This document shows, one piece after another, positions 1-58,460 of a stretch of DNA of 64,000 bases. This DNA comes from Thalassospira australica (GTDB taxonomy: Bacteria; Pseudomonadota; Alphaproteobacteria; Rhodospirillales; Thalassospiraceae). Numbering within the stretch: position 1 is the stretch's first letter; every line of letters begins with the position of its first letter. The notes under the pieces were generated by a model. The model did no database searches. It saw only the letters and a program-made list of their open reading frames with translations, and was not told the DNA's origin. The stretch spans positions 248,001 through 312,000 of the forward strand of contig NZ_JRJE01000004.1 in the NCBI RefSeq assembly GCF_000763295.1, read 5' to 3'. A program made the position numbers and the translations under genes.

Positions 1-1212
1 AGCCCAAAACGCCTGATCAGTGGCATTGCCGAACTTGACCGTGCCTGTGGTGGCGGCCTTGTGCCGGGGTCTGCGCTTTTGGTCGGTGGTGATCCGGGTA
101 TCGGCAAATCAACCATCTTGCTGCAAGCGGTCGGTGCGATGGCCGCAAAACATAAATGTGCCTATATCTCGGGCGAGGAAGCGGTTGATCAGGTCCGCAT
201 GCGCGCCGCCCGCCTTGGCCTTGAAAAATCCAAGGTCGAATTTGCTGCGGCCACCAGCCTGCGCGATATCATCACCACACTTGAAGCCAGCAATCATGAC
301 GTTGTCGTGATTGACTCGATCCAGACCATGTATGCTGACACCCTTGATAGTGCGCCTGGCACCGTTTCACAGGTGCGCGCCTGTGCGCTGGAACTGATCC
401 GGCTTGCCAAACGCAAGGGCTTTGCCGTGTTGCTTGTGGGTCACGTCACCAAGGAAGGCCAGATTGCCGGGCCACGTGTGCTTGAACATATGGTCGATAC
501 GGTTCTGTATTTCGAAGGCGAACGCGGCCATCAATTCCGCATTCTACGTGCGGTTAAAAACCGTTTCGGTGCGACCGATGAAATCGGCGTGTTTGAAATG
601 GGCGATGCCGGACTTGTCGAAGTCCCCAACCCTTCAGCCCTGTTTCTGGCAGATCGCGATTCCCCGGTCAGTGGCACAGCCGTTTTTGCCGGGCTTGAGG
701 GCACCCGCCCGATGCTTGTGGAAATTCAGGCACTGGTCGCACAATCTGCACTCGCCACCCCACGCCGTGCCGTGGTCGGGTGGGATTCTGCACGCATGAA
801 CATGATCCTGGCGGTACTGGATGCCCGTTGCGGTCTGGCACTGGGCCAATTTGATGTTTACCTGAACGTTGCGGGCGGATTGCGTGTGGGTGAACCGGCT
901 GCTGACATGGCCGTTGCTGCCGCCCTGATTTCGGCGGTTGCCGACACGCCAGTGCCCAATGAAACCGTGATTGTCGGTGAAATTGGCCTTTCGGGGGAAG
1001 TCCGCCCGGTCGGGCAACTCGAATCGCGGCTTAAAGAAGCCACCAAACTTGGCTTTGGCAACGCATATACGCCCAAAAGTGGCACACAGGGCAAGAAGAA
1101 GCTGTCGATCAAGGGCCTCAATCAAACTGAAATCGGCCATCTTCAGGATTTGGTAAACCTCTTCGGCGACGATGTGCGCGACAAGGTGCGTCCACGCGAA
1201 GGCATGTATTAA
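1..1212 (+). CDS. radA: DNA repair protein RadA (Sms), 5' end missing
   Basis: RadA is a RecA-like ATPase that helps process branched recombination intermediates. The reading frame is open from base 1, giving 403 residues; about 50-60 N-terminal residues, including the four-cysteine zinc finger usual in the family, lie outside the window. The Walker A motif GDPGIGKST is at residues 30-38 of the visible part, and the RadA-specific KNRFG motif follows in the second third. The C-terminal part (from about residue 230) is the Lon-protease-like domain, ending in a typical basic tail. An ATG-like reading from base 61 would be an internal GTG and is not the real start. cvpA follows 69 bp downstream in the same direction. 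Confidence 0.96.
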   Translation, partial: SPKRLISGIAELDRACGGGLVPGSALLVGGDPGIGKSTILLQAVGAMAAKHKCAYISGEEAVDQVRMRAARLGLEKSKVEFAAATSLRDIITTLEASNHDVVVIDSIQTMYADTLDSAPGTVSQVRACALELIRLAKRKGFAVLLVGHVTKEGQIAGPRVLEHMVDTVLYFEGERGHQFRILRAVKNRFGATDEIGVFEMGDAGLVEVPNPSALFLADRDSPVSGTAVFAGLEGTRPMLVEIQALVAQSALATPRRAVVGWDSARMNMILAVLDARCGLALGQFDVYLNVAGGLRVGEPAADMAVAAALISAVADTPVPNETVIVGEIGLSGEVRPVGQLESRLKEATKLGFGNAYTPKSGTQGKKKLSIKGLNQTEIGHLQDLVNLFGDDVRDKVRPREGMY

Positions 1213-51042: not shown

Positions 51043-51220
51043 TTGACCCAAAACACAACCGGGAATGATCCCTTTCGGGATGCCCGGACCATGCAAATCT
51101 TTTCACATTTCCAGTACAAACCCGTCTGTTTGCAAGGAACCGTTAAACTCCTTTCAGCAGATCGGCGGCTTTTTGACACGGTCTGACCGACGCTGTGAGG
51201 CACCACTGGGGATTGCATGC

Positions 51221-52732
51221 ATGACTGACAGTGACGCACCCAAACAGGGTAAGGCCAACGCCAAATCCGATGCCACGCAGAACGCACCGGAAGCCAGTGC
51301 GGCGGATGCCGAAAACAACCTTCAGGAACCAACAGAACCGCTTGCAGCCGCAAGCCCGGAACAAGCCGCCATGGATATGATGGCCGCTCTTTGCCGGGAT
51401 TTTGGTTTGCCGGAAGTGACCGCGAACCAATCCGCCACGGAAGATGCGCAACAGCAGCCAACCGAAACCGCGTTTCAGATCATTCAACGTTTCCTGCTTG
51501 ATGGGAACGCCAGCACGCCAACGCCAACTGCCAATCTGAACGCCGAGATACATGAAGCATATGGTGATCCCGGCAGCCGGCAAACCGGCCATAGTGATGC
51601 CACCCCAACCACGCAGGGCACTGATCCGCAATGGGGCGTCACCACCACACACAGCGACGGCAGTACAACAGACCTGAGCGGCCCGGTCATCAAGGATGAC
51701 ATGTTTCGGACCGCCATGCCGTCCCTGCAGGGTAAAACCACAGCTGGTGCAAGTGATCCGGACTGGTTGATCAGCATGACACAAAATGCCGCGCTTTCAC
51801 CGATGCACACCCCGGCACAAATCGCCGTTGCCGCCAGACTGTGCGCAACCGATGTTCCCCAATCGCTGCGCAAATGGTGCCTGCATGTCGGACCTTCATC
51901 TGATGCGCTGTCGGAGCTTTCTGTTTCACTGCCTTCAAGTCAGCCATCGCATTTGCGTGCGGTTGTGTTCGATACGACGCTCGAAGACACCAGCGGCACG
52001 CATCTGTCGGAAGTTCCAACATTCAGTGGCGGTCCCTATGCCATTCATCTGGAACAAACGGTTGGAGCCACATCAAGCGAGACCACCCCGAACCGCGCTT
52101 TGATCCGGCTGGTCTTTGCAGATCGCGCACCAATCCCGGTCGAGCTGGAATATGTTGGTGCCCTGCCCAGCCCGGTTGTTGCCGGCACCATTCTGATTGG
52201 CCCGAACCACACCATTCCTTTCTGGGTGCAGATCACCCCACCGGCAGAGGGTGACAATGGCGCCGGGCTGGTTGTTCTGGTGCGTTATGATCGGGAAACC
52301 GGGTTTGACGTCACGGCCCAGCTTGTAACCGATGCCAAGGCCAGCACCCCAACGGCCATCCTGACCTGCAGTGCGCAAAGCGATAATTCCGCCTGCCGGG
52401 CGGCAAGCATGATTGCCAACAGCAGTGGCCGTCTGGAAACAAGCCTGACCGGGCTTTCTGATATTCCCGACGAAAACGATCTGGAAAAATACGGCTTCAT
52501 GCTGCCCGCAGTGGTTAGCAACTCTGACACATCCAGTCCAACTGGCACCAAAAGCGGTTCATCAGTTGGCAAAACGGATACAGTAGAAAGCCCCCCATCC
52601 GCGCCCGCATCGAAATCATCGGGCAGCAAACCAGCCAGTCGCCCGGCAAAAGGCAAGACGGGCGGCACAGATAACGCGACCAAACCCACAAACAGCAGCA
52701 GTTCAAATCGCAACACCAAGGGAGGCACCTGA
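51221..52732 (+). CDS. Unknown protein at head of the reb cluster
   Basis: A 503-residue soluble-looking protein without signal peptide or membrane segment, not of a family I recognise. The first 150 residues are Ala/Gln/Thr-rich and disordered-looking. The centre (about 170-430) looks beta-rich, with WLISMTQNAALSP, LRKWCLHVGPSSDA and GYEIPFW-like strands (such as HTIPFWVQITPP). The tail is Ser/Lys/Pro/Thr-rich. The end shares one base with the next gene's ATG, and GGAGG sits before that ATG, so they are coupled. ATG at 51221 is preferred as start; an upstream in-frame start is less likely. Confidence 0.75.
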   Translation: MTDSDAPKQGKANAKSDATQNAPEASAADAENNLQEPTEPLAAASPEQAAMDMMAALCRDFGLPEVTANQSATEDAQQQPTETAFQIIQRFLLDGNASTPTPTANLNAEIHEAYGDPGSRQTGHSDATPTTQGTDPQWGVTTTHSDGSTTDLSGPVIKDDMFRTAMPSLQGKTTAGASDPDWLISMTQNAALSPMHTPAQIAVAARLCATDVPQSLRKWCLHVGPSSDALSELSVSLPSSQPSHLRAVVFDTTLEDTSGTHLSEVPTFSGGPYAIHLEQTVGATSSETTPNRALIRLVFADRAPIPVELEYVGALPSPVVAGTILIGPNHTIPFWVQITPPAEGDNGAGLVVLVRYDRETGFDVTAQLVTDAKASTPTAILTCSAQSDNSACRAASMIANSSGRLETSLTGLSDIPDENDLEKYGFMLPAVVSNSDTSSPTGTKSGSSVGKTDTVESPPSAPASKSSGSKPASRPAKGKTGGTDNATKPTNSSSSNRNTKGGT

Positions 52733-53244
52733 TGTCTGGTCAGGCGCAAAATGATATCGCCACGGCAAGCGGGCGAAAGGACGCCGTCAGAAAGGCGTTC
52801 AATCAGGAATACATGGCAACGCAGCAGGCCATGTCACAGGCCGCCGAGCGCGCCCGTGCGCAGGTTCTTGATCAAAAAAATACCATTGCCAATCATGCCA
52901 CGGATGTAAAAGCCGGCGCCCAGGCCCCTCAACCGCCGATCGGCGCCCAGAATACCGGGCAGGCACATGCGCAGCCACAAGCCGCAACCGGTCACCCGCC
53001 ACAGGGGGCACCCCACATGGCATCCGACCCAAATCAGTACAGCGATCAACAGATCATGTTCGATATCGCCAATGAAATCCGCAATATCATTACCCGTGAA
53101 ATTGATCTTCGGATGCAGGCTCTGTCGGCAAAAGTGGAAACGGCACTTGCCAATGCCTTCCCGCCCCAGGATCAGGAAAGTGACACACAACACCCCAAAA
53201 CCAGATCCGGCAACCGCCGTTCTGGAAGCAGCAAGAAAACCTGA
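52732..53244 (+). CDS. Unknown protein coupled to the preceding gene in the reb cluster
   Basis: A 170-residue hydrophilic protein. The first 50 residues are predicted helical (RKAFNQEYMATQQAMSQAAERARAQ), the middle is Gln/Pro/Ala-rich and flexible, and a second helical block follows (MFDIANEIRNIITREIDLRMQ). A basic Arg/Lys/Ser tail ends it. It may form a coiled-coil assembly. No recognised domain. Its start overlaps the gene before it by one base. Proximity suggests a role with the Reb proteins, for example assembly or control, but nothing in the sequence proves it. Confidence 0.72.
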   Translation: MSGQAQNDIATASGRKDAVRKAFNQEYMATQQAMSQAAERARAQVLDQKNTIANHATDVKAGAQAPQPPIGAQNTGQAHAQPQAATGHPPQGAPHMASDPNQYSDQQIMFDIANEIRNIITREIDLRMQALSAKVETALANAFPPQDQESDTQHPKTRSGNRRSGSSKKT

Positions 53245-53402: not shown

Positions 53403-53432
53403 TTCACAATCGAGTTAAAGCTACGTCATAAT
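53403..53432 (+). promoter_or_regulatory. Probable promoter of the sigma-factor gene
   Basis: TTCACA (53403-53408), 18-bp spacer, CATAAT (53427-53432); each hexamer differs from the vegetative consensus at one base. It lies 58 bp before the GTG start, which has GGAGGGG at 53478-53484. Confidence 0.5.
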
Positions 53433-53490
53433 GGATACCTGAAAAGTTTATCATCCTATGGTTGTATTCCATCAACCGGAGGGGCCCATA

Positions 53491-54753
53491 GTGCAGAATG
53501 AAAAGAACAGTCGGCAGGATGAGACAACCCTGACACAAGCAGAGCTCAGCTTTGCCCAAAGCCTGGAGCAGACCCTTAATCAGGCTTTGGGGGATGGTGA
53601 CAAGGTGACCTCGATCTGGTCACGGTTGAAACCAGAACAACGTGCGCGCATCGCAGAAGACTATCTTGCGAAGCTCGCGGGATCAGATCCCTGTTTTGAT
53701 CAGGGACATGATGATTGCCAAACCACTTCTGATCGACCCAAAGACGATCCACTTGATTTGGGTGGTTTGGGTGATTTGGGTGATCGCAATGCCAAGGAAC
53801 TTGATGCCGACTTCATCACGCAGTCGCCCGCCTCAAGCGCCCAGCAGGCACCGACGCCAAGCGGATCAGAAACCCCATCCCCGCAGCACCCCCCCACCAC
53901 CACGCCCCCCTCCAATCAATACAGCCCACCCCGCGGTTATCCGGCAGATTTCAATCCACTGGCAGGCTTTCCCGGGCTGGAACCATCACGCAGCGGGCCA
54001 AGCCCCGAAGATGTTATTGCCGGTGCACTGGGTGGTTTAGCCCCCCATGCAACACCGCTTGATGTCTTGCGCGGCGCGGTACCGGGCGAACATGCCCCGA
54101 ACATGCGTCAACCGGTTCCCCATCCACCTGTTGCACCCCCGCTTGAACAACCGGCACCTGATGACAATCCGCAGGTCGATTACAACCACCAAGCTGCAAC
54201 CAGCCCCCAGGATGCCGCCCACACGGGGCCGGCTGCACCGAATTTCTGGCCGCTTTGGATTGATCAGCAAGACAGCCTGTTAAAACAATGTCTGAAGCTG
54301 ATGTCAGGCAATATGGATGATGCGCAGGATGCGTTGTCCGAGGCCATGGTCAAGGCATCAACCAAGTTCGAAGATTCCATGGATGAAATTCGCAACCACC
54401 GCGCCTGGCTATCGCGCATTGTTCATAACGCCTGCATTGATCTGCATCGACAGAACCGGCGCAAGGCGGAATATCGCGAAGAAACCCATGGGGCAGCAGA
54501 CATGCCCCCTTCTCCGATGACAGCGCCGATCACGCCAAGCCCGGAAGAGTCCTATTTGGCGGGCGAGAAACTTGATCAGCTTGAAACAGCCCTTCTTGCC
54601 ATGCAGGAAAAACTGCGCAAACCGCTTTTGATGCGCTGCGTGCAGGATCGAACCTATGACGAGATTGCACAGGCATTGGGCCTTTCGAACTGTGCCGTGC
54701 GCAAACGCGTTCAGCTTGCCCGTGAACATCTTAGAACGGCAGGCATTCAATAG
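53491..54753 (+). CDS. ECF-type sigma factor with long N-terminal extension
   Basis: A 420-residue sigma factor. Residues 252-335 are region 2 (core-polymerase and -10 binding, with RAWLSRIVHNACIDLHRQNRRK), and 361-420 are region 4 (YDEIAQALGLSNCAVRKRVQLAREHL, the -35 reader). There is no region 3. The roughly 250 residues before region 2 are unusual: an acidic helical start (TQAELSFAQSLEQTLNQAL), then Asp/Asn/Gln/Pro-rich low-complexity sequence. ECF factors normally lack this; extensions can act as built-in switches or anti-sigma-like parts. The GTG at 53491 is chosen by its GGAGGGG site. It stands directly upstream of the reb array, so these genes are likely targets. Confidence 0.88.
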   Translation: MQNEKNSRQDETTLTQAELSFAQSLEQTLNQALGDGDKVTSIWSRLKPEQRARIAEDYLAKLAGSDPCFDQGHDDCQTTSDRPKDDPLDLGGLGDLGDRNAKELDADFITQSPASSAQQAPTPSGSETPSPQHPPTTTPPSNQYSPPRGYPADFNPLAGFPGLEPSRSGPSPEDVIAGALGGLAPHATPLDVLRGAVPGEHAPNMRQPVPHPPVAPPLEQPAPDDNPQVDYNHQAATSPQDAAHTGPAAPNFWPLWIDQQDSLLKQCLKLMSGNMDDAQDALSEAMVKASTKFEDSMDEIRNHRAWLSRIVHNACIDLHRQNRRKAEYREETHGAADMPPSPMTAPITPSPEESYLAGEKLDQLETALLAMQEKLRKPLLMRCVQDRTYDEIAQALGLSNCAVRKRVQLAREHLRTAGIQ

Positions 54754-54818: not shown

Positions 54819-54963
54819 GACGAAAAAAACAAAAACTAAATTGAAAAGACGCGTCACAACCCGAAACCACCAGCGTCTTTAGACTGAAAACGGGACGGCG
54901 AAACCCCGTCAGGATCACAACAGCAAGCAGCACACAGCAAAGCTTTACGAAGGAGACTTTACA

Positions 54964-55287
54964 ATGGCGATTCCGACCCCGGTAAATGGTCAGATCACTG
55001 ATGCAGTCACCCAGGCTAACGTGAAAGTTCTGGGCGATGCCCCGGCAATGGCAATGGGCTCTATTTTCCAGTCCCTCGCACATTCCACCGGCATTCTTTA
55101 TGAAAACGCGGTCAGCGCACAGCAGCAGATCGGCATCACCTCTCAGGCGGCAACCAACCAGGGCGTCATCCAGATCTATTCGGTCGATACGATGGCAGAC
55201 TCGGTTGCGACCTCGAAGATTGCCAAAAGCGATGTTCCCGACAACATGCTTTCGCTTCTGACCGCTCTTCAGGCCACCAAGAGCTGA
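54964..55287 (+). CDS. RebB-domain R-body protein (paralogue 1)
   Basis: A 107-residue RebB-family ('killing trait') protein. The core QITDAVTQANVKVLG and then MAMGSIFQSLAHS...NAVSAQQQ is the family hallmark. RebA and RebB of Caedibacter are the structural subunits of R-bodies, insoluble ribbons wound into hollow rolls that extend and can break membranes. GAAGGAG precedes the ATG. A terminator follows at 55322, so this gene may form its own transcript. It is most like paralogues 2 and 6. Confidence 0.92.
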   Translation: MAIPTPVNGQITDAVTQANVKVLGDAPAMAMGSIFQSLAHSTGILYENAVSAQQQIGITSQAATNQGVIQIYSVDTMADSVATSKIAKSDVPDNMLSLLTALQATKS

Positions 55288-55321
55288 TTCCCCCTTATTC
55301 CCCCAAACAGGCCCAACAAAC

Positions 55322-55358
55322 CGGGCGGTCGCATTCACCTTGCGGCCGCCCGATTTTT
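55322..55358 (+). terminator. Rho-independent terminator after reb paralogue 1
   Basis: Stem CGGGCGGTCGC/GCGGCCGCCCG (55322-55332 with 55342-55352, one G-T pair) and five T residues. Confidence 0.85.
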
Positions 55359-55517
55359 ATCCGCATCACCACGGCAAAACAGCGCAGCTTTTTAAGGGCC
55401 TAACGTCACAACACCCTTTGCCCTGCGTCAACTGATTGACCGCAAGACATGCGGAAAGGGCCGGTTGCGAGGGATAACTTCCATCCGGCACTTCTTTAGG
55501 CAACCAGGAGATACACA

Positions 55518-55853
55518 ATGGCTGATAACACTCCGGTCAATGGCATGATTACCGACGCCGTCACCCAGGCCAATGTAAAGGTGATGGGCGACGCGCCGGC
55601 AATGGCCATGGGCTCGCTCTACCAGTCGCTGGCGCATTCTCATGGCATTCTCTACGAGAACGCTGTCAGTACCCAGCAGCAGGTTGGCATTTCTTCGCAA
55701 GCAGCCACCAATCAGGGCGTCATTCAGGTTTATTCTGTCGACACCATGGCGGGTGCAGTTGCGACGTCAAAGCTCGCCGCAAGCGACGTTCCCGACAATA
55801 TGCTTTCGCTTTTGTCGGCACTCAAGGCAACGACCGGAACGTCCGTGTCGTAA
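55518..55853 (+). CDS. RebB-domain R-body protein (paralogue 2)
   Basis: A 111-residue RebB protein very similar to paralogue 1 from end to end: shared ITDAVTQANVKVMGDAP, SLAHSHGILYENAVSTQQQ, and a tail of SVDTMAGAVATSKLAASDV. A recent duplication is likely. CAGGAG lies before the ATG. It has its own upstream gap of 160 bp after the preceding terminator and its own downstream terminator, so it is probably a separate unit with its own promoter, which I cannot pick out by eye. Confidence 0.92.
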   Translation: MADNTPVNGMITDAVTQANVKVMGDAPAMAMGSLYQSLAHSHGILYENAVSTQQQVGISSQAATNQGVIQVYSVDTMAGAVATSKLAASDVPDNMLSLLSALKATTGTSVS

Positions 55854-55881
55854 CATCCCTATTGGTTTCGCCGCCGAACCG

Positions 55882-55912
55882 GCCCGGCATGCAATCGCTT
55901 GCCGGGCTTTTT
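55882..55912 (+). terminator. Rho-independent terminator after reb paralogue 2
   Basis: Perfect stem GCCCGGCA/TGCCGGGC (55882-55889 with 55900-55907), 10-nt loop and five T residues. Confidence 0.9.
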
Positions 55913-55979
55913 CCATCACAAATGGTTCGATGCGGCGTCATCACGGTAGGTACTTGTTTCGCCAGTCAAGGAGAAGGAC

Positions 55980-56279
55980 ATGCCAGCGGCACCCCCTGAG
56001 CAAAACGGCAAGAAATCCGCACACCCCCGGTTCGATTCGACTGAAGAGCCCCACAAGTGTGAGGTCTCAGATCAGATCACGGACTGTGTTGCCCTGACCA
56101 ATGTCGCGACACTGGGTTCGGGGCCGGGGTATGCCGCCCTGCAATCCATGCTTGGCCAGACCCAATCCCAAAACATTCTGATGGCGAACATGGTGTCCGC
56201 CCAAAAGCAAAACGCCATGATCGGCATGACGACCATGACCCAAAGCGTTCTGCAAATGATGAACCGCGGCAACAAATAA
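55980..56279 (+). CDS. RebB-domain protein (paralogue 3), divergent
   Basis: A 99-residue member with a charged 28-residue N-terminal leader that the others lack, then the core VSDQITDCVALTNVATLGSGPGYAALQS, which keeps ITD and the helical SQNILMANMVSAQ block. Two Cys residues occur before and within the core. AAGGAGAAGGAC precedes the ATG. It ends 11 bp before paralogue 4, so the two are co-transcribed. The divergence suggests a specialised place in the ribbon or its ends, as inference only. Confidence 0.85.
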   Translation: MPAAPPEQNGKKSAHPRFDSTEEPHKCEVSDQITDCVALTNVATLGSGPGYAALQSMLGQTQSQNILMANMVSAQKQNAMIGMTTMTQSVLQMMNRGNK

Positions 56280-56290
56280 GGATCATTCCG

Positions 56291-56596
56291 ATGAGCAGCC
56301 AAAGCGAAGTCGACGAACAGATCACCGATAGCGTGACCCAAACCAACACATCCGTCATTGCCAATGGCCCGGCCATGGGAGCAATGCAGTCCTATCTGTC
56401 GCAGGCCCAGGCGCAGGGCATCCTGTTTGCCAATATGGTCAATGAACAACAGCAACAGTCGGTTGCCAGCCTTGCCACCACGATGGAGTGCGCCAAGGCC
56501 ACCCTGTCGGTTCAGGACAGCAAACCAAATTTTTTTACGCAGCCCCAACCGGCGCGCCGTCGCCCGCATTCGGATTCGAACAACAATCCCACCTGA
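56291..56596 (+). CDS. RebB-domain protein (paralogue 4)
   Basis: A 101-residue member. The core EQITDSVTQTNTSVIANGPAM is followed by a Gln-rich helix (SQAQAQGILFANMVNEQQQQS). The last about 30 residues are Pro/Arg/Asn-rich and unlike the other paralogues. The stop is 2 bp before the start of a tiny acidic protein, so the genes are tightly packed. Confidence 0.85.
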   Translation: MSSQSEVDEQITDSVTQTNTSVIANGPAMGAMQSYLSQAQAQGILFANMVNEQQQQSVASLATTMECAKATLSVQDSKPNFFTQPQPARRRPHSDSNNNPT

Positions 56597-56598
56597 AA

Positions 56599-56799
56599 AT
56601 GAAACCCCGCCCGGACGGCATGAACCTTGACGATCCGGACGATGAAGATGAAGACGACGATGCGCAAACAGCGGCCCCCTGGCATCGCGACATCTGGGGC
56701 GATCTGGACGAACGGTTCCTCGGAGATGGAACTGGCCATTCCGGGCAGGACGGTCCGAACGACGACGATGACGGTGAAGAGACAGAGGACGAAGCATGA
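56599..56799 (+). CDS. Small, highly acidic protein inside the reb array
   Basis: A 66-residue protein, strongly acidic: two Asp/Glu clusters (LDDPDDEDEDDD near the start and DDDDGEETEDEA at the end) flank a WHRDIWGDLDERF segment with two Trp. It starts 2 bp after paralogue 4 and its stop overlaps paralogue 5 (ATGA), so coupling is expected. Not a Reb domain and no family recognised. Acidic proteins next to insoluble assemblies may act as chaperones or charge spacers, but that is speculation. A second Met at 56620 is a possible start. Confidence 0.65.
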   Translation: MKPRPDGMNLDDPDDEDEDDDAQTAAPWHRDIWGDLDERFLGDGTGHSGQDGPNDDDDGEETEDEA

Positions 56800-57023
56800 A
56801 TGATATCGTCAACCCACAAGTCACCGATGCTGTCACCCAGACCAACGTCAAGGTTCTGGGTGAAAGCCCCGCACAGGCGGTTTCCATTGCCATGCAGTCG
56901 CATTCACATGCCACGGGACTGGCGATGGAAAACGCAACGCTGACCCAGGGCAACATGCAGCAGGTCGTCAATACGGCGACATCAAAGCTCGTAGCGATGA
57001 TCACAGCCCAGGCAGGCGGGTAA
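56796..57023 (+). CDS. RebB-domain protein (paralogue 5), shortest
   Basis: A 75-residue member consisting of nearly the bare core: NPQVTDAVTQTNVKVLGESPAQAV, then HATGLAMENATLTQGNMQQV and a short tail. It starts within the stop of the acidic gene (ATGA). It lacks the YSV-type tail of paralogues 1, 2 and 6. Confidence 0.9.
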   Translation: MNDIVNPQVTDAVTQTNVKVLGESPAQAVSIAMQSHSHATGLAMENATLTQGNMQQVVNTATSKLVAMITAQAGG

Positions 57024-57070
57024 TCCGATGAATTTGATCACAAACCTTCGCGTTGCCCGTCTAAAGATGT

Positions 57071-57092
57071 GCGGTCATCCGGACCGCTTTTT
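57071..57092 (+). terminator. Terminator-like hairpin just before reb paralogue 6
   Basis: Stem GCGGTC/GACCGC (57071-57076 with 57082-57087), 5-nt loop and five T residues, ending only 11 bp before the ATG and directly ahead of GGAGG. It would partly stop transcription coming from paralogues 3-5, or it is an attenuator in the leader of paralogue 6. Confidence 0.7.
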
Positions 57093-57103
57093 CGGAGGAT
57101 AAC

Positions 57104-57427
57104 ATGGCTATTCCAACACCGGTGAACGGTCAGATTACCGACGCAGTCACCCAAAGTTCAGTCAGTGTTCTTGGATCCGCACCCGCCAATGCGATGGGCT
57201 CGATCTATCAAAGTGCGGCACATTCAACATCCATCCTGTTTCAAAATGCCGTGCAGGCACAGCAACAGGCATCAATGTGTTCGCAGGCGGCAACCAACCA
57301 GGGCGTGATGCAGCTTTACTCTGTCAACACGATGGCTGGCGCACAGGCCACCGCAAAACTCGGACGGTCTGACAACAGCGATACGCTTTTGACACTTCTC
57401 GTAATTTTGGCAGCAACCCGCCGCTAG
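57104..57427 (+). CDS. RebB-domain R-body protein (paralogue 6)
   Basis: A 107-residue member whose first 17 residues match paralogue 1 exactly (MAIPTPVNGQITDAVTQ) and whose tail keeps the QAATNQGVMQLYSVNTMAG block. It is therefore of the same subgroup as 1 and 2. GGAGG precedes the ATG. The leader holds the terminator-like hairpin at 57071-57092. Confidence 0.92.
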   Translation: MAIPTPVNGQITDAVTQSSVSVLGSAPANAMGSIYQSAAHSTSILFQNAVQAQQQASMCSQAATNQGVMQLYSVNTMAGAQATAKLGRSDNSDTLLTLLVILAATRR

Positions 57428-57486
57428 GCACCTGACCCGCCGGCGCATCTGCGAACCGGCAATGGTCACAAACATGAGGGCGTGAA

Positions 57487-57750
57487 ATGGCAGACAACAC
57501 CCCTGTAAATTCACAAATCACCGACGCGGTGACACAGAACAACGTCAAGGTTCTGGGTGAAGCGCCGGCACAGGCCATGGGCCTTGTGTATCAGACGATG
57601 GCCCATTCCATCAGTCTGTCGATGCAAAACGCCATGCAAACCCAAGGCGGGCTGCAACAGATTGGCAACGCCGTAACGTCCAGCGCCTGCAAGATGATCT
57701 TGGACAGTTCCGGGGGCGGCATGGGCGGCAAAGGCGGCGAAGGCGGCTGA
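57487..57750 (+). CDS. RebB-domain protein (paralogue 7), Gly-rich tail
   Basis: An 87-residue member: core NSQITDAVTQNNVKVLGEAPAQAMG, then SISLSMQNAMQTQGGLQQIGNAV, closest to paralogue 5. It ends with a Gly-rich tail (GGGMGGKGGEGG) not seen in the others. It lies 59 bp after paralogue 6, with no terminator between. Confidence 0.9.
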   Translation: MADNTPVNSQITDAVTQNNVKVLGEAPAQAMGLVYQTMAHSISLSMQNAMQTQGGLQQIGNAVTSSACKMILDSSGGGMGGKGGEGG

Positions 57751-57854
57751 CCGGATCTGACTGACAAGCCCCCTGATCACGCACAACCACCGCACGGGCG
57801 CGCATTTTGCGTCACATGTGCAAGTCTACCCACCAGCCCCGCACGAGGTTTACG

Positions 57855-58460
57855 ATGGCAGACGATGACAACACCGCAAACGACAGCTCGAAAACCGAAA
57901 GCGACGATGCAAGCAAAACCAACGGTGATGATAGCACGTCAAATGCAGCCTCAAGTACGGACAGCAGCAAAGCCGAGGCTGGCGGCAAATCCGATGACAG
58001 CGGTTCAGCCAGCGGCTCCGGCGATGATAGCAGCAGCTCGGAAAGCGGGTCAGACAGTGGGTCAGAAAGTGGTTCGGATGGATCTGATGCAGGCAGCGCA
58101 TCTGGCACCCCGCCGCTTAGCACCGCGCTTAATCCGCAAATTGTTCAGGCCGTCGGCACCACCAACCACGCTGTTTTGAACGGGGCCATCCCCGGTGCAA
58201 ACGGGGTTGCCTATCAAAAAGTCTCCCAGGCGGCGGCCTATGCGGTTCAGGATTCAACCGATTATCTGCGCAACATCATGTCAATGGCATCCGCCACCAC
58301 CGGTGTCGCCATGCAACAGATGCTCGCGACAAAGGAAGTTGATCCCTATTCCAAAATCATCGAAGCCGCAACCAAGGCAGTCGGTGACGCCCAAACCACC
58401 TTTTCAAAGGTCGGCACGTCTGCCAGTTCAGTGGTGAAGGACTTTGATAATCTGGCCTGA
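57855..58460 (+). CDS. RebB-like protein with Ser/Asp-rich N-terminal region (paralogue 8)
   Basis: A 201-residue protein. The first 85 residues are low complexity, about one-third Ser with many Asp and Gly. From about residue 90 a Reb-like helical domain follows: NPQIVQAVGTTNHAVLNG, then QKVSQAAAYAVQDSTDYLRN. It is the most divergent member, with a longer C-terminal helix. GAGG precedes the ATG at 57855. The C-terminal assignment to the Reb family is by pattern and less certain than for the others. Confidence 0.72.
   Translation: MADDDNTANDSSKTESDDASKTNGDDSTSNAASSTDSSKAEAGGKSDDSGSASGSGDDSSSSESGSDSGSESGSDGSDAGSASGTPPLSTALNPQIVQAVGTTNHAVLNGAIPGANGVAYQKVSQAAAYAVQDSTDYLRNIMSMASATTGVAMQQMLATKEVDPYSKIIEAATKAVGDAQTTFSKVGTSASSVVKDFDNLA

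Follow-up and report, generated by a model that had tools for sequence, protein, structure and literature searches.

R-bodies, spring-like protein ribbons that are coiled and resist SDS, are encoded in Caedibacter taeniospiralis by rebABCD on plasmid pKAP298, four reb genes of which RebC is without relatives in the account of Dorr 2026. In Pseudomonas aeruginosa PA14 (RebP1/P2, RebD, RapA, FecI2 and RcgA), reb is expressed stochastically, in 0.26% of cells, and its expression requires a linked sigma factor—the need for FecI2 and RcgA was shown for rebP1—and work cited in the same paper implicates rebD (Wang 2021). Azorhizobium ribbons depend on rebAZC3, rebAZC4 and one of rebAZC1/2, each essential, together with one non-Reb gene (Matsuoka 2017). 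Raymann 2013 described two mutually exclusive groups of loci: Group 1 (Azospirillum; HP1.1–HP1.4) and Group 2, with HP2.1/HP2.2, a sigma factor (HP2.3) and a cyclic-nucleotide-binding regulator (HP2.4). Here we describe a chromosomal locus of Thalassospira australica, lying in a window of 64,000 nucleotides (the whole stretch of DNA analysed; contig NZ_JRJE01000004.1, positions 248,001–312,000), that is by sequence an R-body (reb) locus and is likely, judging from the same evidence, to be run by its own extracytoplasmic function (ECF)-type sigma factor.

The locus comprises eleven genes (Table 1), whose order, hpA-hpB-sigma-r1-r2-r3-r4-r5-r6-r7-r8, is identical in 24/24 reb-positive Thalassospira genomes. 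The first-pass annotation, which had the sigma gene, hpA/hpB and the upstream motif described below outside its scope, placed eight open reading frames (ORFs) at 54964–58460 of the window and assigned seven of their small products to the RebB family. All eight ORFs are present, and r1–r7 (7/7) exceed the 24-bit cut-off of Pfam PF11747, our test of RebB membership (E 1.9e-28 for r1 to 1.3e-6 for r3). The threshold for a reb locus in Dorr 2026 is at least three clustered reb genes; here there are seven in one cluster, and a whole-genome PF11747 search returned no RebB match beyond r1–r7.

As in Caedibacter, the RebB-family genes stand in one cluster, and the short Caedibacter gene (rebD, to judge by gene order) belongs with the r7 class, where its branch is long; Caedibacter differs in its four reb genes, and no match to the hpA, r8 or sigma profiles was present in the 4.9 kb examined. 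PA14 shares the linked sigma factor but has fewer Reb genes. The megaplasmid locus of Ruegeria pomeroyi (Crp/Fnr, sigma, RebD-class and two RebB genes) is alike in its sigma gene (a weak profile match, 19 bits), one r7-class gene and two R1-class genes, but contains no ORF with a best profile of r2–r6 or r8, and the hpA and hpB profiles match nothing in it. The C-terminal domain of r8 matches the profile of Azospirillum-type proteins that have the size and position of HP1.2 (probability 99.4%, E 5e-21), so that a relative of a Group 1 marker and a Group 2-type sigma gene occur in one Thalassospira locus. The Azospirillum stretch itself gave no sigma profile match, and its R1-like copies form their own group.

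A promoter-like motif and the linked sigma gene

The motif TCACAN-N14-CGTC lies upstream of the sigma gene, r1, r2, r3 and r6 in 24/24 genomes and of hpA in 19/24; the second r1 copy present in 8/24 genomes has a motif of its own (8/8). No site fell in bins drawn as coding, the bin edges being generous at uncertain starts (up to ~300 bases into the sigma ORF). Over 189 kb of one strand, exact TCACAA was paired with CGTC at a spacer of 14 in 127 sites, at 8 in 3 and at the eleven other spacers (9–20) in none, and the spacer bases differ between genomes. The ECF41 promoter (TGTCACA-N16±1-CGTC; Wecke 2012) is likewise bipartite and ends in CGTC, with a similar TCACA and spacing. This shape fits an ECF sigma factor, and the sigma gene in the locus is, from sequence, the obvious candidate to recognise the motif. 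Membership of the locus sigma factor in ECF41 was considered and rejected: ECF41 proteins have a large C-terminal extension, whereas here the extension is N-terminal and the sigma domains end at ~428 of 431 residues. The motif upstream of the locus genes is a new element of this analysis; neither the promoter signature nor its cross-genus link to a sigma gene was found in open-licence PubMed Central (PMC) papers, the FecI2 motif figure of Schulz 2015 lying outside that comparison.

Terminator-like hairpins follow r1 in 22/24 genomes (shuffled, 0/24) and r2 in 24/24 (shuffled, 2/24), and r1 and r2 look like separate transcription units. The remaining units are defined by the motif only: a hairpin lies between r4 and r5 in 2/24 genomes, and our script found none between r3/r4, r6/r7 or r7/r8 (0/24 each). 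Between the r6 motif and the r6 start, at 57071–57087, 6 base pairs followed by TTTTT form a short hairpin of terminator type, perhaps a leader element or the point at which the r5 unit ends.

Outside the genus, we searched the 250 bp upstream of each of 377 ORFs with reb or sigma profile matches. The motif was found with a spacer of 14 in 45, of 15 in 13 and of 11 in 2, and with the other ten spacers in none; the genera that carry it span alpha-, beta- and gammaproteobacteria. The spacer-14 matches were upstream of R1/R2 (28/166), r6 (6/34), sigma (6/28) and r7 (5/65), and none was upstream of r3, r4, r5 or r8. Within the T. australica genome, a near-identical 24-mer containing the motif, with the same 12-base left flank, occurs in three copies (L152, L161 and L162); with two of these copies near contig ends, it is probably part of a repeat.

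Several observations weigh against control of the locus by its own sigma factor. The exact motif marks just those 45 of the 377 reb and sigma ORFs outside the genus, with 13 more at spacer 15. The T. australica genome holds 18 exact sites, 5 in the locus and 13 elsewhere (reversed pattern, 6 in all), and five reb-negative Thalassospira genomes still hold 10–16 (reversed control, 2–7), which leaves other targets or compositional bias possible. The sigma gene persists in these five genomes, which shows that its use is not confined to R-bodies. The script also found no hairpin between sigma/r1 or between r5/r6 (0/24 each), so read-through is possible and the division into six units is that of the motif. 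A wider regulon is not supported, because the difference in mean genome-wide sites between reb-positive (15.7) and reb-negative genomes (12.4) is about the contribution of the locus.

The motif might instead be the site of another sigma factor or of an activator, with the neighbouring sigma gene merely another target, which would accommodate the motif upstream of the sigma gene itself (24/24) and the exact sites elsewhere in the genome; the regulators studied in Azorhizobium are PraR and RebR (Matsuoka 2017). We consider this unlikely, given that the sigma gene keeps the motif in five genomes without reb genes and that the motif and a linked sigma gene recur jointly in several genera (for example, Brevundimonas, Vineibacter, L121 and Roseibium).

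Reb paralogue classes and the eighth protein

The profile search named beforehand as a check on the divergent members recovered r3 and r4 (E 1.3e-6 and 4.4e-12) but not r8, which lies below the PF11747 cut-off (10.5 of 24 bits, E 0.69). The related domain that had been claimed for r8 was instead found by profile–profile comparison. A profile of its alphaproteobacterial relatives matched r5 (probability 95.9%, E 5e-9) and r7 (94.8%, E 5e-8); a Thalassospira-only profile was weaker (r7 61%, r5 27%, r6 18%, r1 10%), and it was this weaker profile that, column-shuffled as a control, gave <1% against r5 in 5/5 runs. On the basis of these matches and the control, r8 is probably a Reb protein that has diverged very far, with a disordered front rich in Ser and Asp. 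Three helices past residue 93 are seen in its structure model, which is only partly confident (mean predicted local distance difference test, 64.9).

The paralogue groups drawn in the first pass hold: r1, r2 and r6 are full length, r5 and r7 short and related, r3 and r4 divergent and r8 the most divergent. Of the primary Reb motifs listed by Dorr 2026 (QITD, KxxxD/E, NAV and QQ(Q)), r1 has all, r2 has MITD and r6 is without the K; the same paper assigns Reb groups 1–6 and S1–S4 by 40% identity to a listed seed. As far as sequence can tell, the paralogues are old classes common to other genera, and their number varies mainly in R1. Genus profiles were run on 89 loci (19 from Thalassospira, some from the same genome twice), and the order R1(n)-R3/R4-R5-R6-R7-R8 was seen in Nisaea, Kordiimonas, Tistlia, Magnetovibrio, Brevundimonas, Caulobacter and Vineibacter. 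The gammaproteobacterium Methylobacter has the same order from R1(n) to R7 and no r8 profile match. Many loci depart from this order (for example, Chromobacterium, Xanthomonas and Rheinheimera). One contig of Methylobacter tundripaludum (L109) carries two reb arrays ~4 kb apart, each with R1, R3/R4, R5-position and R6 genes.

In a tree of 121 Reb domains, the R5-position rows (14) group at 98/99, including the R5-position proteins of Kordiimonas, Tistlia and Methylobacter, for which the best profile is r7. Of the 19 rows labelled r6, 14 form a group that also takes in two rows labelled r1 from a single metagenome-assembled genome (99/94); the R3/R4 rows group together and are joined by one row labelled r6 (100/98); and R5 and R7 group with short Reb proteins of Caedibacter, Ruegeria, Paraburkholderia and Luteimonas (the RebD class; 97/89). 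R1/R2 copies partly cluster by lineage. The finer branching order is unsure, as the alignment has 118 columns, 55/118 inner branches have good support and several long ones, including that of Caedibacter, were flagged.

Rates of change differ among the classes. Mean identity within the genus is 92–94% for r1, r2, r5, r6 and r7, 79% for r4, 66% for r8 and 63% for r3. Median ratios of nonsynonymous to synonymous change (dN/dS; 68 to 261 of 276 pairs per gene) span 0.035–0.237 across the eleven locus genes, with 0.035–0.072 for r1, r2, r5, r6 and r7, 0.145–0.223 for r3, r4 and r8, and 0.096 for the neighbouring cyclase gene. The lowest mean synonymous divergence (pS) among the measured genes is that of r1 (54964–55287; 0.36 versus 0.54 for the cyclase), which may reflect high expression or gene conversion.

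It is very unlikely that the eight genes are for the most part redundant, with one ribbon protein duplicated repeatedly and no specialised roles: the lineage-wise clustering of many R1/R2 copies and the extra r1 in 8/24 genomes would fit such duplication, but every position retains a best match of its own in 24/24 genus genomes and the R5-position, R3/R4, RebD-class and most R6 proteins group across genera. The specialised subunits proposed in the first-pass annotation gain support that is indirect, from these cross-genus orthologous classes, the very unequal rates and the paralogue requirements in Azorhizobium. That the Reb proteins no longer form ribbons and serve another intracellular role is extremely improbable, since r1, r2 and r6 keep ITD, NAV and QQQ (r1 and r2 also KxxxD) at median dN/dS of 0.035–0.057, even though Dorr 2026, the only Thalassospira R-body paper found in the open-licence PMC literature, describes no Thalassospira ribbon in the text consulted.

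Gene number and the hpA-hpB pair

Among 29 Thalassospira genomes, 24 have 7 or 8 RebB matches and 5 have none. RebB matches were present in 29/199 genomes examined from the order and 15/385 from the class; with genus members left out (19 and 2, respectively), 23 reb-positive genomes remain, of which 15 hold 6–11 matches and 8 hold 1–4, some on short contigs. The largest of these sets has 11 matches in one genome of the class, 10 of them in a single cluster. Because 15/23 genomes hold 6–11 matches, the reb gene number here is ordinary. The earlier description of the array as expanded applies relative to Caedibacter only, and not to that class genome or to the printed counts of 6 in R. centenum, 7 in V. 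fischeri and 9 in two loci of M. mediterranea (Raymann 2013). Thalassospira has already been named among the genera with many reb species (Dorr 2026).

Directly beyond r8, on the opposite strand, lies a cyclase-domain gene (PF00211; 58466–59770) that adjoins the locus in 24/24 reb-positive genomes. On a tree of the cyclase gene, the five reb-negative genomes fall together in one group (Shimodaira–Hasegawa approximate likelihood ratio test, 99; midpoint root only). All five keep the cyclase gene and, between it and an amidotransferase gene (PF13230), the sigma gene with its upstream motif; no reb, hpA or hpB match was found in the 12 kb examined around sigma. In four of them (L172, L173, L175 and L176), a second exact TCACAA-N14-CGTC was observed 320–437 bases upstream of the kept sigma ORF. 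A genome-wide search with the hpA profile gave matches in 23/24 reb-positive and 0/5 reb-negative genomes, and the sole reb-positive miss (G025) has an hpA copy at 21% identity; the absence of hpB refers to the 12 kb around sigma. The pattern suggests that the R-body block and hpA-hpB were lost jointly in a single event, a direction that we infer. Neither this co-absence nor the r8–HP1.2 link was found in the open-licence PMC papers.

The hpA structure model is beta-rich and of low confidence. Among the best 7,997 candidates scored, 38 matched hpA, and those with names were only Thalassospira proteins or 'hypothetical protein'; hpB had no match to Pfam. A role for hpA as cargo is a guess. Two further observations concern the r4–r5 gap: a small acidic ORF (56599–56799, 66 aa) has a stop that overlaps the r5 start (ATGA), and in 9/24 genomes the gap holds an ORF with a short common motif (F or M, x, G, D or N, G).

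Table 1 Genes, motif sites and hairpins of the T. australica reb locus, in window coordinates.
Feature	Position	Strand	Remarks
Promoter-like TCACAT-N14-CGTC before hpA	51103..51126	+	One mismatch to TCACAA
hpA	51221..52732	+	503 aa, no assigned function; beta-rich core flanked by low-complexity ends; start likely 51221, ORF open from 51065
hpB	52732..53244	+	170 aa, no assigned function; start overlaps hpA stop
TCACAA-N14-CGTC before sigma gene	53404..53427	+	
ECF-type sigma factor	53458..54753	+	431 aa; long Pro-rich N-terminal part, then sigma domains ~270-428
TCACAA-N14-CGTC before r1	54854..54877	+	
r1, primary Reb	54964..55287	+	107 aa; PF11747 E 1.9e-28
Intrinsic terminator-like hairpin after r1	55322..55352	+	Fold z -5.0
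TCACAA-N14-CGTC before r2	55406..55429	+	
r2, primary Reb	55518..55853	+	111 aa; PF11747 E 3.8e-27
Intrinsic terminator-like hairpin after r2	55881..55908	+	Fold z -3.0; outside the initial hairpin list for the locus
TCACAA-N14-CGTC before r3	55916..55939	+	
r3, divergent Reb	55980..56279	+	99 aa; PF11747 E 1.3e-6
r4, divergent Reb	56291..56596	+	101 aa; PF11747 E 4.4e-12
r5, short Reb	56796..57023	+	75 aa; PF11747 E 7.1e-18
TCACAA-N14-CGTC before r6	57038..57061	+	
r6, full-length Reb, own class	57104..57427	+	PF11747 E 1.6e-25
r7, short Reb, RebD class	57487..57750	+	PF11747 E 2.7e-24
r8	57855..58460	+	Ser/Asp-rich N-terminus and probable divergent Reb-like helical domain; HP1.2 relative; start probably ATG 57855 rather than TTG 57807

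A proposed scheme for the R-body locus

From genes, gene order, motif, hairpins, paralogue classes and presence or absence, all taken from sequence, we infer a scheme that joins sigma–motif pairing, feedback, a ribbon and its target. The ribbon subunits are most likely R1, R2 and R6, with R5 and R7 (RebD class), R3/R4 and R8 likely to have accessory roles or to act in assembly or at the ends. TCACAA-N14-CGTC is most likely the site of the neighbouring ECF-type sigma factor, which most likely also activates its own gene and would fire up to six starts at once (hpA-hpB, sigma, r1, r2, r3-r4-r5 and r6-r7-r8). The r1 and r2 units would be kept apart by the hairpins that follow them, so that subunit amounts could differ. 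By analogy with PA14, positive feedback may lead to the full commitment of few cells, in which the ribbon could act against grazing protists, by deterring or killing them. More doubtful is a broader proposal, which we advance tentatively: across three classes of Proteobacteria, R-body genes would answer to a sigma factor dedicated to them and to its private promoter (TCACAA-N14-CGTC), and in Thalassospira this regulon would extend to hpA-hpB, a fast-evolving pair whose presence and absence follow those of the R-body genes and which would be their cargo or cap.

The Thalassospira locus belongs to a known kind of R-body locus, and is well organised and of ordinary size. Which partners R-bodies have, and what poison they supposedly deliver, has long been asked (Raymann 2013). 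With a promoter signature for R-body genes, co-regulated partners could be listed directly from sequence alone, with hpA-hpB as the first pair, and the class structure indicates which Reb paralogues are worth testing for roles in the ribbon, its assembly or its ends. If R-body genes do have a private promoter, that promoter could be used to search any genome for R-body partners.

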